Part shown: piece by piece, positions 33,669-41,147 of the stretch | How the letters are laid out: every line of letters starts with the position of its first letter | How positions within the stretch are numbered: position 1 is the stretch's first letter | Assembly: GCF_900188395.1 (NCBI RefSeq) | Contig: NZ_FZOB01000015.1 | Location: forward strand, 1-41,147 | From: Desulfurobacterium atlanticum | Lineage (GTDB): Bacteria > Aquificota > Aquificia > Desulfurobacteriales > Desulfurobacteriaceae | DNA: 41,147 bases | Reading direction: 5' to 3' | Notes under the pieces: model-generated | What the model saw: only the letters and a program-made list of their open reading frames with translations | Database searches by the model: none | Told to the model about the DNA's origin: nothing | Translations under genes and position numbers: made by a program

Positions 33669-34923
33669 TCTTTCCTCCTTTCTCCCATACTTTTATTAAA
33701 TACGGTTTTAAATCTTCAAACCGCTTTGCCTGTTTCTCAAAATAGTTTTCAGCAGCAGCATCATCTTTATCTTTCAAATTACACACTATTGTTGCAACTC
33801 TTGCGTTATAAAGGGGTATCATCATGTTTAGAAGTTTAAACTTCTGTCTCGGTGTTTTGTGAAATGCCGCGGCAAATCTGTAAACTATTCTTACCCATGA
33901 ATCAGTTGGAAGATTAAAGCTATCAGATTGTGCAGTTAAAAGAGACTCAACTACCTTAAAATCTTCCGGTTCAAGTATGTTTTTCCACACGCCAGCAAAA
34001 TTTTTAAAGCCCAACCTGAAGTAATCTATAAGAGCTTCAACATCTATCTCAAATGGCGGAGGTTCTTCGTCAATTTCCTCTCCAAAGGTTGGTACAGGAA
34101 CAGAACCTTTAACCTTTTTCCAGTATTCTTGATAATCTTCCATAAGCATAAAAATTGTTCCAACAACCTGTCTGAACATATCACTTAAGTCTGCTGCCGG
34201 ATCTTTCTCATCGTGAATCTTAGCTCCAAGTCTTGTCTGACAGATTTTAAATCCGTTAACTATTGCAAATATTGTCATCCATGAGTCAACTCCAAATTTT
34301 GCAACAGGTGTTTCCCACACTTCATCGTCAAGGTATGAGTGAATTAAATTATAGGAAAGTCCGAAATCTCCACCGATAGGCTGACGAATTCTATATCCGT
34401 ATAAAGCTCTTACAAGGTTATAAGCTATTGTATTTGTTATTGTTCCGTCAAACTTAAATCTTTTATAGTCCGGTGCTACAAAATCGTAACCTTTAAACAC
34501 AGGAGAAAGAACAGATTTAACCCATTCAGGTTTGATTGACCTTAAATCAGCATCAAATAGAGCGGTTGCTTTAACTTTTAAAAACTTTGAGGCTTCAAAG
34601 ATAGCCCTTAAAGCTGAACCTTTACCCGGGACACCTCTATATATTGATACAAGTTTCGTTATATTTTTTGAGGGAATTTCAGCTTCCCAGGCAATCTCTC
34701 TTGTATCGTCTGTTGAACCACCGTCAGATACAAAAATAATAGAGCGAAAATCGGGATAGTAGAGATGAAGTCCCTTCGCTACCGTTTCAACCACATGCTT
34801 AATGGAATCTGAATTGTTATAACTTGGAATGCCAACCATTATATCAGCTTTAACTATTTTTTCTATTTCTCTTCTTACAGGCTCTCTTAAAGCTGTTGAA
34901 AATCTTTTGAAAATTTTTATCAT
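33661..34923 (-). CDS. GT-A glycosyltransferase of the solute operon, possible mannosyltransferase
   Basis: A 420-aa protein. The GT-A core begins DIMVGIPSYNNSDSIKHVVE, continues FVSDGGSTDDTREIAWEA and GKGSALRAIFE, and has the DxD in ALFDADLRSIKPEW. RIRQPIGGDFGLSYNL and a long helical C-terminal half follow. Its neighbours are a GpgS-like enzyme and a mannosyl-3-phosphoglycerate-phosphatase-like protein. A second sugar transfer giving mannosylglucosyl-3-phosphoglycerate (as in Petrotoga) would fit, but a related GpgS activity cannot be excluded. It overlaps glycerate kinase by four bases and gpgS by eight. Confidence 0.65.
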   Translation of the reverse strand: MIKIFKRFSTALREPVRREIEKIVKADIMVGIPSYNNSDSIKHVVETVAKGLHLYYPDFRSIIFVSDGGSTDDTREIAWEAEIPSKNITKLVSIYRGVPGKGSALRAIFEASKFLKVKATALFDADLRSIKPEWVKSVLSPVFKGYDFVAPDYKRFKFDGTITNTIAYNLVRALYGYRIRQPIGGDFGLSYNLIHSYLDDEVWETPVAKFGVDSWMTIFAIVNGFKICQTRLGAKIHDEKDPAADLSDMFRQVVGTIFMLMEDYQEYWKKVKGSVPVPTFGEEIDEEPPPFEIDVEALIDYFRLGFKNFAGVWKNILEPEDFKVVESLLTAQSDSFNLPTDSWVRIVYRFAAAFHKTPRQKFKLLNMMIPLYNARVATIVCNLKDKDDAAAENYFEKQAKRFEDLKPYLIKVWEKGGKSG

Positions 34924-36211
34924 CGGACTGCTCCTACAACCATAATAAGTATATCCATAACGTTTGTTCCCGTTTTTCCTGTTTCTATAACCCCGCCTGT
35001 CCTTTCAAAAAAAGTTGAAGAGTCGTTATTCTCAATAAATTTATCAATATCAAGGTTTAATTTATGAGCATTTTTAAATGTTTGGCTATCACAAACTGCA
35101 CCGGCATACGGAGAGTTACCGTCTATTCCGTCAGTTCCGCCTGACAAAATAGCTATTCCCTTTCTATCACCTATAATCTTTAATGCGGAAAGAACAAGTT
35201 CCTGGTTTCTTCCTCCCTTTCCCTTCCCTTTGAGAGTGACTGTTGTTTCTCCTCCTGCAAGAATAACAGCTGGAGCGGGAGCGGGCGTTCCATAATCTGC
35301 AGATTCCGTAGCGATAGAAGCCATAACTTTTCCCACTTCTTTCGCTTCACCCTGTAAATAAGAGGTTAAAATGCAGGTGTTAAATCCCTTTTTTTTGCAA
35401 GGTTTTTTATATGCATCAGGGCTTTTCTGTTGTTTCCAATAATAAAGTGTTTGATGTTGGGATTCTCAGTTTTTGGTGTTTCCTCAATTTTAGCTGAAAC
35501 TCCTTTCTCTATTACATTTTTTACTTTTTCCGGAACAGAGTTGTAAATCCCATACTTTAAAAGAATATTTTTTGCATCTTTAAAGGTTGTACTGTCTTTA
35601 TACAGAAGTCCTGAACCTATGGTTTCAAGGTCATCACCGATAACATCTGAAATAACAAGAACGATTCCTTTTGCTTTTGTATAACGGGATAATCTTCCGC
35701 CTTTAATCAGTGATAAATGCTTTCTTACAGTGTTTATCTCTTTTATCTCCGCTCCACAGGCAAGAAGAAGTTTTGTGGTGATTTTTATATCTTCAAAGCT
35801 GAGCGGTGAAACTGGGACTTCAACCATAGCTGAAGCACCACCTGAAAGAAGAAAAATAAACTGCTGGGAAGGTTTCAGCTGTTTAAACATTTCTATCATT
35901 CTTTTTCCAGCTTCTATACTTCTACTATCTGGAACAGGATGGGCGCTCTCAAATATTTCTACATTATCAAGTTTTCCCCCTTCAGATGAAACAATAAAAC
36001 CGCCTTTCACACAGGATGATATAAAAGGAAAGACAGCTTCAGCCATCTTTTTTGATGCTTTACCACATCCAAATAGATAAACTTCATTTTTGAGTGGAAT
36101 ACCACAGATAGAAAGGGGAAATTGCGATACCGTCTCAGGTATTAAAGTTTCCGGTAAGACTGCCTTTATACCTTCTTTAAAAAGTTCAACTGCTACCTGC
36201 TTCAAGTTCAT
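34920..36211 (-). pseudogene. Glycerate 2-kinase (GckA/MOFRL family) interrupted by one frameshift
   Basis: Two frames make one kinase. The first (36211-35366, 281 aa) has the DUF4147 domain: FGCGKASKKMAEAVFPF, ESAHPVPDSRSIEAGKRM, LSGGASAMVEVP, NTVRKHLSLIKGGRLS. The second (ending 34920) carries the MOFRL domain: AVILAGGETTVTLKGKGKGG, RNQELVLSAL, ILSGGTDGIDG. They meet at a run of eight A (35389-35396). Nine A would restore LAKKKGFNTCILTSYLQGEAKEVGK. The run begins A-AAA-AAA in zero frame, so -1 ribosomal slippage or transcript slippage could still yield full protein. A sequencing error is also possible. The enzyme phosphorylates glycerate, perhaps recycling that of the solute. Confidence 0.75.
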
Positions 36212-37111: not shown

Positions 37112-37141
37112 GTTTCAATTCCTTAAAAGCACGCTTAAAAT
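37112..37141. repeat. Diverged CRISPR repeat at the distal (trailer) end
   Basis: It matches the 30-bp array repeat in 26 positions: it starts GTTTCAATTCCTTA and ends ACGCTTAAAAT, with changes at positions 15, 17, 19 and 30. It lies 2 kb left of the main array, as expected of an old trailer repeat. Confidence 0.8.
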
Positions 37142-37197
37142 TGCATCTTCCCCTAATCATTTCAACTGCTGCTCAACTGTTATCGGCAAGAAAATGA

Positions 37198-37869
37198 AAA
37201 CCGAAAAACATTCCGCCGGTTCCTGAAGGATTTACGACAAGTCCGTTAAATAGCTGGTGGAAGTTAGCAGACTCTATGGCAAAAAGGGCTGTTAATTACG
37301 GAATTCACGAGGAGATTCTTGAAAAGGCTAAAAACCCCTGCCAGAATAACTTTGCTGATGAGTGTCCAGAGTGGGAGGAAGTAAAAGAGTTGATTGAAAA
37401 GTGGGAAGAGGTAGAGAAAGCAGAAAAGCTTTTGTTGGAAAGATTAGAAGACTTGTCTTTTACTTCAAAGGAATCTTTTCTTTCTTCGTTTTCCAAGCTG
37501 TGGAAGAAAGGAAGCTTTGAACACCATGTTGAAGAAAGATTAGAGAAAGGGCATCTTCCTTCTAAAGAGCCTGCATTAGCTTATGCTGTTAAAATTTGTC
37601 AAATACTTTCTGAGCATGAAGTAAGGCTGATTGGATTCAAGAAAGGGAAACTCCACAGAGTCCATTACGTGATAGCAAAGGATTGGCTTGTTGCTATTGA
37701 TTCTAAGGGTTTCTTCAGAACTGCTTTTCCATTGGTAATTCCCTTGCAAAAATGGCTGGAAGTGCGTAAACTTAAAATGGAAGAAATTAAAAGGATGAAG
37801 GCAAATGAGGAAGTTAAAAGAGCTTTTGAAGGAATACTCCGTAGGATTAAAGTATTTCAGACCAGATGA
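37198..37869 (+). pseudogene. 5'-truncated Mu-like phage head gene, possible PBECR-type C-terminus
   Basis: The frame opens straight after a TGA at 37195 and runs in phase through the first ATG at 37276. Residues before that ATG (IPPVPEGFTTSPLNSWWKL) already look coding, so the 5' end of the gene is missing. After an acidic, helical middle, HRVHYVIAKDWLVAIDSKGF and RTAFPLVIP resemble the phage-borne Barnase/EndoU/RelE-like (PBECR) domain seen on Mu-type head proteins. The identification is tentative and strengthened by the Mu-like protease downstream. There is no proper ribosome-binding site. Confidence 0.5.
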
Positions 37870-38083
37870 AGAGGATGACGCAGCTTTCCTCTATGCAGTA
37901 AGAAAGAGATTAGAAGAAAAGAAGAGTGAACTCACTCCTGATGAACTTCAACAACTTATAGAGGCCGATAACTTTGCTCGTGAGCTACTGAGAAAACACG
38001 AGGGAAGTAGCAAAGAGGGTATCTTTTATTTGGAGCTTCTCGTTAAGAACTTTGCTTTTGAATCTACCCAAACTACAGCTTAA
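37805..38083 (+). CDS. Small phage-derived ORF, unknown
   Basis: A 92-aa acidic, helical protein (RPDEEDDAAFLYAVRKRLEE, LTPDELQQLIEADNFARELL). It overlaps the end of the head-gene fragment by 65 bases, AAGG lies a few bases before the ATG, and it is followed by the protease fragment. Its position between head gene and protease fits the morphogenesis block of Mu-like phages. No function recognised. Confidence 0.4.
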   Translation: MRKLKELLKEYSVGLKYFRPDEEDDAAFLYAVRKRLEEKKSELTPDELQQLIEADNFARELLRKHEGSSKEGIFYLELLVKNFAFESTQTTA

Positions 38084-38184
38084 TCCTGCCAATCTCTGCT
38101 TTTCTCTCCTTTTTCCCTTGAATCTTAAACTAACCCCCGTTTTTCGCCTCAAAATTTCCTCTGATTAAACCAATCCTGCCACTT

Positions 38185-38768
38185 TTGTTTTCATTTCGTT
38201 CTATTCTCAACCAAAAGCCTTTGGAGGCTGCATTGAGGATAGAACTTGCCAGAGCTGGAAACTGGAACGGTCAGATTCTAAAAAAAGAACATCTAAAACA
38301 AGTTGCCAAGAATTTTAAAGATGAAGTTCCTATTGTCTTAGGACATCTTAAAGCCGACCATATGCCTGCTTTTGGCTGGATTAAAAGTGTTGAACTTTCT
38401 GATATTCTCAAAGAGGCATACGACCTGGGCTTTATAAAAAGTGGTCAATAGAATTAAGACCAAACGATAAGGGAGAGTGGTATCTTCACCACCTTGCGTT
38501 CTTAGGCGCAGTTCCGCCGAGAATTAAGGGCTTAAAAGTTCTTGAGATGTCCGACATTAAAAATTTAAAAACTTTTGAATTTTCGGAAAGTTCAAAGTGG
38601 AAATCCTTTGCTAAAACAGGTTACCTGATAGCTCCTCCTGATACAAGCTGGAATCCAGAAGAGGCTAAAAAGAGAATAGTTGAGAAATACGGTTGGGAGA
38701 AACTTAAAACCTGTGTTGGAGCTGTTGATGTTTCAAAAGAAGAAACCTATCAAAGCTTTTCTGAATAA
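38185..38768 (+). pseudogene. Mu gpI-like phage protease/scaffold, frameshifted and 3'-truncated
   Basis: The first frame (to 38451) reads LARAGNWNGQILKKEHLKQV and VPIVLGHLKADHMPAFGWIK, typical of Mu-like protein I, the prohead protease with internal scaffold. Near 38435 a run of five A, where six would keep the frame, shifts it. The second frame continues KKWSIELRPNDKGEWYLHHL, AFLGAVPPRIKGLK, and ends KEETYQSFSE two bases before a CRISPR repeat. The normal C-terminal scaffold is missing. One frameshift and an abrupt end at the repeat mark it as dead. Confidence 0.65.
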
Positions 38769-38770
38769 AT

Positions 38771-38800
38771 GTTTTAATTCCTTAGAGGTACGCTTAAAAC
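38771..38800. repeat. CRISPR repeat isolated between phage slice and membrane gene
   Basis: It has one change (C5 to T) from the array repeat. It stands alone: 1629 bases of phage-like DNA on its left back to the diverged repeat, and 320 bases on its right before the regular array begins. Confidence 0.9.
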
Positions 38801-38847
38801 TTCGCAATTCCTTACACAGTTTTTCAGAAAACGGGCTAAGTCTCCTT

Positions 38848-39105
38848 TTAGGGGCATTGTTGCGATGAGGGAGTTGAAAATTTCTTACGGTGAATTTCTA
38901 AACATTCCTTTAAAGAGGCTTCAGTTTCTTCTTGAGAAGCTGAGAGATTACCAGCAGAAGATTTATTCTCGTACCAATCAGCTATGAGGTATATAACGCC
39001 GATAACAGGAGAAAGAGCAATGCTTAAAATGGCTACAAAAAGAGCTATTACTACAGCTATCACGCATCCAGCCAGAAAATATCCAAAAACAGTTTCAAGT
39101 CCCAT
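38848..39105 (-). CDS. Small membrane protein in a CRISPR inter-repeat interval
   Basis: An 85-aa protein. Residues about 5-42 are hydrophobic (FGYFLAGCVIAVVIALFVAI then LSIALSPVIGVIYLIADW), probably two helices in a hairpin. A polar tail of about 40 residues follows. GGAGGAG lies three bases before the ATG. The gene and its ribosome-binding site fill the space between two CRISPR repeats. It reads in the predicted crRNA direction, so it could be translated from the end of the pre-crRNA transcript. Function and origin unknown; holin-like or phage-derived is a guess. Confidence 0.5.
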   Translation of the reverse strand: MGLETVFGYFLAGCVIAVVIALFVAILSIALSPVIGVIYLIADWYENKSSAGNLSASQEETEASLKECLEIHRKKFSTPSSQQCP

Positions 39106-39120
39106 AGCTCCTCCATCATT

Positions 39121-41147
39121 GTTTCAATTCCTTAGAGGTACGCTTAAAACATGGTACTGATAATCTTACGGAATTGTCAAAATCGAGTTTCAATTCCTTA
39201 GAGGTACGCTTAAAACCTTTCATTGGTAGCGAGGAAAACGACAACGTGAGCAGTTTCAATTCCTTAGAGGTACGCTTAAAACTCGCTGGTGCTGTTGCCG
39301 TCATAAAAACTGCAACAGAGGATGTTTCAATTCCTTAGAGGTACGCTTAAAACCATCGTCAAAAAAGAATACACCATCACTATTGTTATAGTTTCAATTC
39401 CTTAGAGGTACGCTTAAAACCTCAGAGAGCTAAACTTATATGAGGAATTCCTTATATGTTTCAATTCCTTAGAGGTACGCTTAAAACTTAATAGAAGGTA
39501 AACTGCAGCAGGATAAGTGGGAAGAGTTTCAATTCCTTAGAGGTACGCTTAAAACCTTGCTGAATATGAAATAAGAGCACAAAGACAAAAGTGTTTCAAT
39601 TCCTTAGAGGTACGCTTAAAACTCCCCGAATAACACCATTCACCACTCCCCAATAATATTCGTTTCAATTCCTTAGAGGTACGCTTAAAACCTCTTTTCC
39701 ATCTTTTCCATCTTTTACCTCCTTTGTTTGTTTCAATTCCTTAGAGGTACGCTTAAAACCTTTTCTTCACACCAAGCCATCTCTGAGCCTCATCTAGTTT
39801 CAATTCCTTAGAGGTACGCTTAAAACTTTTGCAATGAAAAAGTAGTTTGTTCAACAAAAGGAGTTTCAATTCCTTAGAGGTACGCTTAAAACAAGAAGTT
39901 GTTTTTACTTTTGATTACCATCGTCACTGTTTCAATTCCTTAGAGGTACGCTTAAAACTTGCGGAAAATGAAACTTTGTCAATATATATCCAGCGTTTCA
40001 ATTCCTTAGAGGTACGCTTAAAACATATAATAATATATGGAAAAGTTATTATAGTTATAATTGTTTCAATTCCTTAGAGGTACGCTTAAAACTCATTTTG
40101 ATATATCCTGTCTTGCTGAATATGAAAGTTTCAATTCCTTAGAGGTACGCTTAAAACTATTTGCATTACTATGTCCCAAGTCCTTGAAACAAGTTTCAAT
40201 TCCTTAGAGGTACGCTTAAAACTTGACGGATGTCTTGACTGTTTACTTGAATATATAGTTTCAATTCCTTAGAGGTACGCTTAAAACTATTGATTATCTT
40301 GATGATTACCTTCACAGAGATGAGTTTCAATTCCTTAGAGGTACGCTTAAAACAAGGAAGGATAGAAAAATAGTTTTTGACTATATGGAGTTTCAATTCC
40401 TTAGAGGTACGCTTAAAACTATTGATTATCTTGATGATTACCTTCACAGAGATGAGTTTCAATTCCTTAGAGGTACGCTTAAAACAAGGAAGGATAGAAA
40501 AATAGTTTTTGACTATATGGAGTTTCAATTCCTTAGAGGTACGCTTAAAACTATTGATTATCTTGATGATTACCTTCACAGAGATGAGTTTCAATTCCTT
40601 AGAGGTACGCTTAAAACAAGGAAGGATAGAAAAATAGTTTTTGACTATATGGAGTTTCAATTCCTTAGAGGTACGCTTAAAACTATTGATTATCTTGATG
40701 ATTACCTTCACAGAGATGAGTTTCAATTCCTTAGAGGTACGCTTAAAACTTTTGGGCACCATTTGTTTACAGATTTGAAGGGCAAGTTTCAATTCCTTAG
40801 AGGTACGCTTAAAACATAGAAATTTTTATGCACTTTTTCACCTTCAGGGTCAAGTTTCAATTCCTTAGAGGTACGCTTAAAACATGAATATGAAAATATT
40901 ATTATATGCAAAAATTGTTAGTTTCAATTCCTTAGAGGTACGCTTAAAACCCCTTCCCCTTCATGCAGGAAGGGAGGTTTTCATTATGTTTCAATTCCTT
41001 AGAGGTACGCTTAAAACTATTATCGTTGAAGCAGTTTTTTGCTGCCTCAACGATAGTTTCAATTCCTTAGAGGTACGCTTAAAACTATACAAACATATTA
41101 CCAACAACAAAAAATCCAAATAGTTTCAATTCCTTAGAGGTACGCTT
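39121..41147 (-). CRISPR. CRISPR array: 30 full repeats plus a partial one, 30 spacers
   Basis: The 30-bp repeat begins GTTTCAATTCC and ends TACGCTTAAAAC. All 30 full copies are identical, and the last (41123-41147) is cut by the window edge. Spacers are 35-41 bp, mostly 36-38. Read on the minus strand, the repeat ends GGAATTGAAAC, giving the AUUGAAAC 5' handle of Cas6-processed type I-B/III systems; the same repeat class occurs in Clostridium thermocellum. So crRNA is predicted on the minus strand, with the leader beyond the right edge. Consistent with that, the worn repeats (37112, 38771) are on the left. No cas gene is in the window, so the subtype is unproven. Confidence 0.97.
40258..40749. 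repeat. Spacer-pair amplification A-B-A-B-A-B-A within the array
   Basis: Eight repeats enclose seven 36-bp spacers of only two kinds. A starts TATTGATTATCTTGATG and fills 40288, 40420, 40552 and 40684. B starts AAGGAAGGATAGAAAAATAG and fills 40354, 40486 and 40618. The 132-bp unit (two repeats, two spacers) is present 3.5 times with no base change, so the expansion is recent or is a clone/assembly artefact. Confidence 0.95.

Follow-up and report, generated by a model that had tools for sequence, protein, structure and literature searches.

CRISPR spacers are known to recombine homologously with phages (Watson 2018 and Varble 2019, cited in PMC8616872), and the CRISPR loci of Streptococcus pyogenes have been reported as sites of prophage integration (Varble et al., cited in PMC9071438). 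The structures described here resemble the former in that spacers may provide homology arms for recombination with the phages they target; however, as PMC8616872 presents those studies, CRISPR loci are exported in phage particles, whereas the natural genomes studied here retain phage genes within the array, between repeats. With the S. pyogenes case, as outlined in PMC9071438, they share phage DNA resident in a CRISPR locus, but the streptococcal elements are prophages and ours are internal slices of 0.3–1.6 kb without phage ends. A third related system is represented by the MuF polymorphic toxins that temperate phages encode (Jamet 2017, PMC5576092), whose MuF core precedes a variable C-terminal domain, with a small gene downstream. 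The same order was observed in our locus, except that the core at the N-terminal side is incomplete and the block is located inside a CRISPR array. A limited literature search returned no description of phage slices that have the size of genes, are bounded by repeats and recur at the ends of arrays. Beside the known spacer-phage recombination and prophages in CRISPR loci, what appears to be new is the gene-sized, repeat-bounded and recurrent capture.

Phage slices between CRISPR repeats

The window (the whole stretch of DNA analyzed, 41,147 nucleotides) is contig C15 of the vent bacterium Desulfurobacterium atlanticum (Desulfurobacteriaceae) in full, part of a 1.74-Mb draft genome. The following features were identified:

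37112..37141, plus strand: degenerate CRISPR repeat with 4 mismatches, the last one at the trailer end
37142..38770, plus strand: oversized spacer 1, a 1,629-bp phage slice with the 3' part of a MuF head gene, a small gene and the 5' part of a protease gene
37198..37869, plus strand: MuF C-terminal ORF, 223 open codons with an in-frame stop just upstream, candidate polymorphic-toxin domain
37805..38083, plus strand: small ORF of 92 aa, intact, occupying the immunity-gene position
38185..38768, plus strand: pseudogene of a head-maturation protease, with a frameshift near 38450 and cut off by the repeat
38771..38800, plus strand: CRISPR repeat, 1 mismatch
38801..39120, plus strand: oversized spacer 2, a 320-bp slice of a second phage type with a tail-assembly-chaperone-like 3' part and an antisense small membrane-protein gene
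38848..39105, minus strand: membrane-protein gene, intact, 85 aa
39121..41147, plus strand: regular CRISPR array, 30-nt repeats, spacers of 35–41 nt, runs off the contig, crRNA strand minus

The array repeat is GTTTCAATTCCTTAGAGGTACGCTTAAAAC, with perfect copies from 39121 onward. The array resumes on C14, the sole other contig with a terminal copy of this repeat, and leads there to the leader and cas2. When the minus strand is read, the 3' end of the repeat is ATTGAAAC, the usual 5' handle of crRNAs; crRNAs therefore run from right to left, which places the trailer end at 37112. Since the leader and cas2 are at the far end, on C14, the window slices occupy the trailer, that is, the oldest part of the array. 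The C14 operon encodes Cas8b, Cas7b, Cas5b, Cas3, Cas4 and Cas1 (type I-B) and is located beside Cas10 and Cmr4-like genes (type III-C). Ordinary units are 30–42 nt long, mostly 35–39 nt, as compared with 1,629 and 320 bp for the oversized units, neither of which has the length of an ordinary CRISPR spacer (~36 nt). Spacer duplications were also observed: a two-spacer unit is tandemly duplicated at 40251–40750, two spacers on C14 are each present in five consecutive copies, and one spacer on C2 is present in four. C2 carries the second array of this genome, which terminates on the trailer side (L032, 5424–5444) in half a repeat, without a phage slice. Outside the array, a glycerate-kinase-like gene (34920–36211) is found in two ORFs, with an apparent frameshift near 35350.

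The initial annotation had described a Mu-like phage fragment flanked by two CRISPR repeats, and its main features were confirmed. The 1,629 bp of phage DNA lie exactly between two repeat copies, a diverged one extending to 37141 and another starting at 38771. The former had a score of 22 of 30 against the array repeat in a gapped alignment, as compared with at most 11 in shuffles of a related 2.7-kb region; a chance origin of the repeats was ruled out by these alignment scores. An assembly artefact is unlikely, as comparable structures are present within 1.4-Mb and 1.7-Mb contigs of relatives. The fragment is indeed cut at both ends: MuF has lost its N-terminal part and retains only its C-terminal part and the last portion of the core, and the protease lacks its 3' end, its last stop codon (38766–38768) being two bases from the repeat as had been noted. 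The Phage_Mu_F core (PF04233) was matched via an intact relative (2.3e-22), and the protease showed family matches to phrog_976 (2.4e-7 and 3.5e-8); its cut 3' end and frameshift make it a pseudogene. Homology of slice 1 to intact phages reaches within ~5 bp of each repeat. It had also been stated that no phage end is visible, and this agrees with our analysis, in which the window slices are internal gene fragments and no phage ends, integrase or transposase were found at the joints. The Mu-like label stands for the head genes only, because the genes upstream in an intact relative from G010 are terminase- and helicase-like. DNA and protein searches of INPHARED revealed no close match except one 28-base hit. 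In IMG/VR, relatives were present for MuF, and none were found for the protease part or the slice-2 chaperone. Prophages of G001 and G008 also have the gene arrangement of slice 2, located between their tail-tube and tape-measure genes.

Recurrence of phage slices in related genomes

The window fragment is not isolated and is part of a recurrent pattern in the family. Among 22 genomes of this family, the block of MuF head gene and small gene was identified at CRISPR trailer ends in seven loci of five genomes including the window, with four repeat families. These blocks occur in G000 (the window genome), G011 (L043), G018 (L044), G015 (L047 on C34 and L049 on C10) and G008 (L050), and a later search revealed a second C10 locus of G015 (L117) with a junction identical to that of L049. 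Gene orientation varies among the blocks. The MuF search also returned prophage copies, as well as one copy (L048) that stops at a contig edge and was left unplaced. Queries with portal, protease, decoration and major-head genes, used against a bias toward MuF alone, matched mainly prophage contigs and the window; the portal query also revealed L067, a flush end in a portal gene in a second array of G010. When MuF homologues in other families of the phylum were examined by k-mer scan, no array was detected, the exception being L106, a weak partial match near repeats.

Two more phage genes recur as oversized "spacers": the small membrane-protein gene and an 85-aa partner of a HEPN-like gene (HEPN label assigned by eye). 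All three recurrent slice genes have intact copies in prophages; in those of G000 (contig C9) and G017, the HEPN-like gene follows its partner. The G010 trailer consists, in order, of a small-gene fragment, a repeat, a 365-bp membrane-protein slice, a repeat, a 522-bp slice with the 85-aa gene and the normal array. In G011, the order is the 85-aa gene, a degenerate repeat, a 1,235-bp MuF slice, a degenerate repeat, a 573-bp slice with the 85-aa gene and the normal array. The membrane-protein gene was also detected at array ends of G003, G004, G006 and G021, which have other repeats there. Repeats are present on both sides of six units in three species (G000, G010 and G011), most of them with flush phage homology, and all oversized units are at trailer ends. 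The far end lacks a visible repeat at L044, L047, L049 and L050; in the first three, the slice abuts the last repeat and gives way to host DNA or tRNA genes. At L044 (8340–10320) and L047 (3915–5800), tRNA genes adjoin the phage block at its far end. Slices within one genus may be related by common descent, at least in part, although their orientation and boundaries differ, and the number of independent events is inferred rather than counted. Separately, many repeats in the leader-near half of the G011 array (L043, 3455–5380) have indels and uneven spacing, due to either sequencing error or real decay, whereas those in the trailer-near half are perfect.

PAM-like triplets at slice edges

At the leader side, phage DNA is flush with the repeat wherever it could be compared with an intact phage, and a TYA triplet (TCA or TTA) precedes this edge in intact phages for four of the five testable slices, a count that leaves out window slice 2, whose edge is in diverged non-coding DNA. 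TCA was found in three phages and TTA in one for the portal slice (L067), and TCA in three and TTA in two for the MuF slice of L043; as the local aligner began further in, the first bases of the latter were placed by eye. The G010 slice with the HEPN partner has TTA, and the G010 membrane-protein slice TTA in one phage and ATA in the other. Window slice 1 has AAC, not TYA, in three phage homologues. At the far edge, four of six slices have an internal TYA at a distance of 36, 36, 38 and 35 nt, and counting phage homologues raises this to five of six, the TYA of window slice 1 (38 nt) being present only in homologues; in the sixth slice it is at 30 nt, outside the spacer range. With the orientation reversed as a control, TYA occurred in one of six slices at 35–38 nt and in two of six at 34–41 nt. 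The chance probabilities of these counts (binomial, ~9e-6 for four of five leader-side edges with a background of 0.037 per position; for the far edge, 0.005 for four and 0.0003 for five of six at 35–38 nt, and 0.04 and 0.006 at 34–41 nt) are optimistic because the TYA motif was chosen after the first junctions and one ordinary protospacer were seen.

Upstream of ordinary protospacers of these arrays, represented by approximately ten diverged matches, TYA is enriched as well, with four cases (TCA, TTA, TTA and TTA); the others have TGA, TCC, ATA, TTG, TTG and TAG, and the PAM is not firmly fixed by them. The C2 array has one spacer that matches an IS605-type TnpB-like gene of relatives (L075 and L076), where TCA is found upstream. 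Judging from their edges, the slices look like phage DNA spanning one protospacer to another.

Origin of the slices

We regard it as slightly better than an even guess that the slices arose by homologous recombination between spacers and an infecting phage, with two spacers taking part and the intervening repeat being replaced. Two neighboring spacers matching the same phage would serve as homology arms, and the rest of spacer A, the repeat and the start of spacer B would be swapped for the phage DNA between both protospacers. The product would contain a repeat, protospacer A, phage genes, protospacer B and a repeat, in this order. The slices, which are old and leader-distal, may owe their retention to the small complete phage gene in each, of the immunity/antitoxin or membrane-protein type. 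The arrays of G000 and G011 each have several spacers that resemble parts of the MuF prophage, which is the starting state required for such an event. Points against this model are the AAC at the leader-side edge of window slice 1 and its far-edge TYA that is present only in homologues, the loosely fixed PAM, the TYA at 30 nt in the sixth slice, the hits in the reversed control and the possible common descent of slices within a genus. The phage origin and recurrence of the slices, their flush junctions and, in relatives, their PAM-like edges were observed directly, whereas the recombination event and any benefit to the host are inferred.

The initial annotation had left the choice between a very long prespacer and recombination or deletion. 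Integration of very long prespacers by Cas4-Cas1-Cas2 at the leader, followed by aging to the trailer, is in our view unlikely. Such aberrant adaptation would account for repeats on both sides and for the PAM-like triplet beside the leader-side edge, and cas4, cas1 and cas2 are present at the locus. However, no oversized unit was found near the leader, and Cas1-Cas2 is known to measure prespacer length. In addition, a far edge that resembles a spacer with its own PAM is predicted by two-spacer replacement and not by a single long prespacer. Recombination is favored over a long prespacer on this ground, the far-edge evidence being moderate.

Decay of prophages in or beside arrays, with deletions leaving internal fragments and selection keeping the small genes, is more doubtful still. 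Pseudogenes (protease and MuF) within the slices and the position of the slices among the oldest repeats are consistent with it, as is the reported integration into S. pyogenes CRISPR loci, as cited in PMC9071438. Yet flush, PAM-adjacent edges are not what decay would be expected to leave, and the repeats on both sides as well as three different phage regions in successive repeat-bounded units also count against it. The recurrence of six such units in three species, most of them flush, speaks against plain prophage decay, and the full prophage inside an array that would have indicated it was found in none of the relatives examined. The least probable reading, in which a single spacer was the homology arm, the other phage end joined the chromosome illegitimately and the older part of the array was replaced, fits the slices at L044, L047 and L049 that are followed by host DNA or tRNA genes but leaves unexplained those with repeats on both sides, including the window. 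For two-spacer recombination, the missing far repeat at L044, L047, L049 and L050 requires a second, illegitimate joint or a one-sided variant.

If recombination between two spacers is the source, spacers would be both guides and landing pads for host uptake of phage genes, and the old end of an array would be a record of phage-gene capture. All genomes could be searched for its signature: an oversized unit, a PAM at the leader-side edge and a second PAM set in from the other edge by the length of one spacer.

Possible functions of the small genes

The small genes are intact where their neighbors are cut or frameshifted. In L043, the small gene has a pN/pS of 0.11 and no stop, as compared with 0.28, one stop and four indels for the toxin part of the same slice, part of this divergence having arisen in the phage. 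Constraint on the membrane-protein gene is weak (pN/pS 0.55–0.70). These values are no more than suggestive of selection on the small gene after capture, and retention of small genes for protection is plausible. Profile searches gave no family match for the MuF C-terminal domain or the small gene. MuF C-termini vary between loci, with differing downstream genes. The C-terminal domain in the window is a candidate polymorphic-toxin domain and the downstream ORF, from its position, a putative immunity gene. It is conceivable, if rather speculative, that arrays are gene-capture sites, where pairs of spacers against one phage would guide, by homologous replacement, the import of whole small phage genes (immunity, antitoxin or exclusion) that selection would then keep, complementing RNA-guided immunity with inherited protection from phage toxins. 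If so, it would be testable whether phage-derived immunity genes stay beside CRISPR as protection from phage-carried toxins. A phage MuF head gene of G015 (L046, 1–2077) also has an apparent intein at a conserved NHFNC motif.
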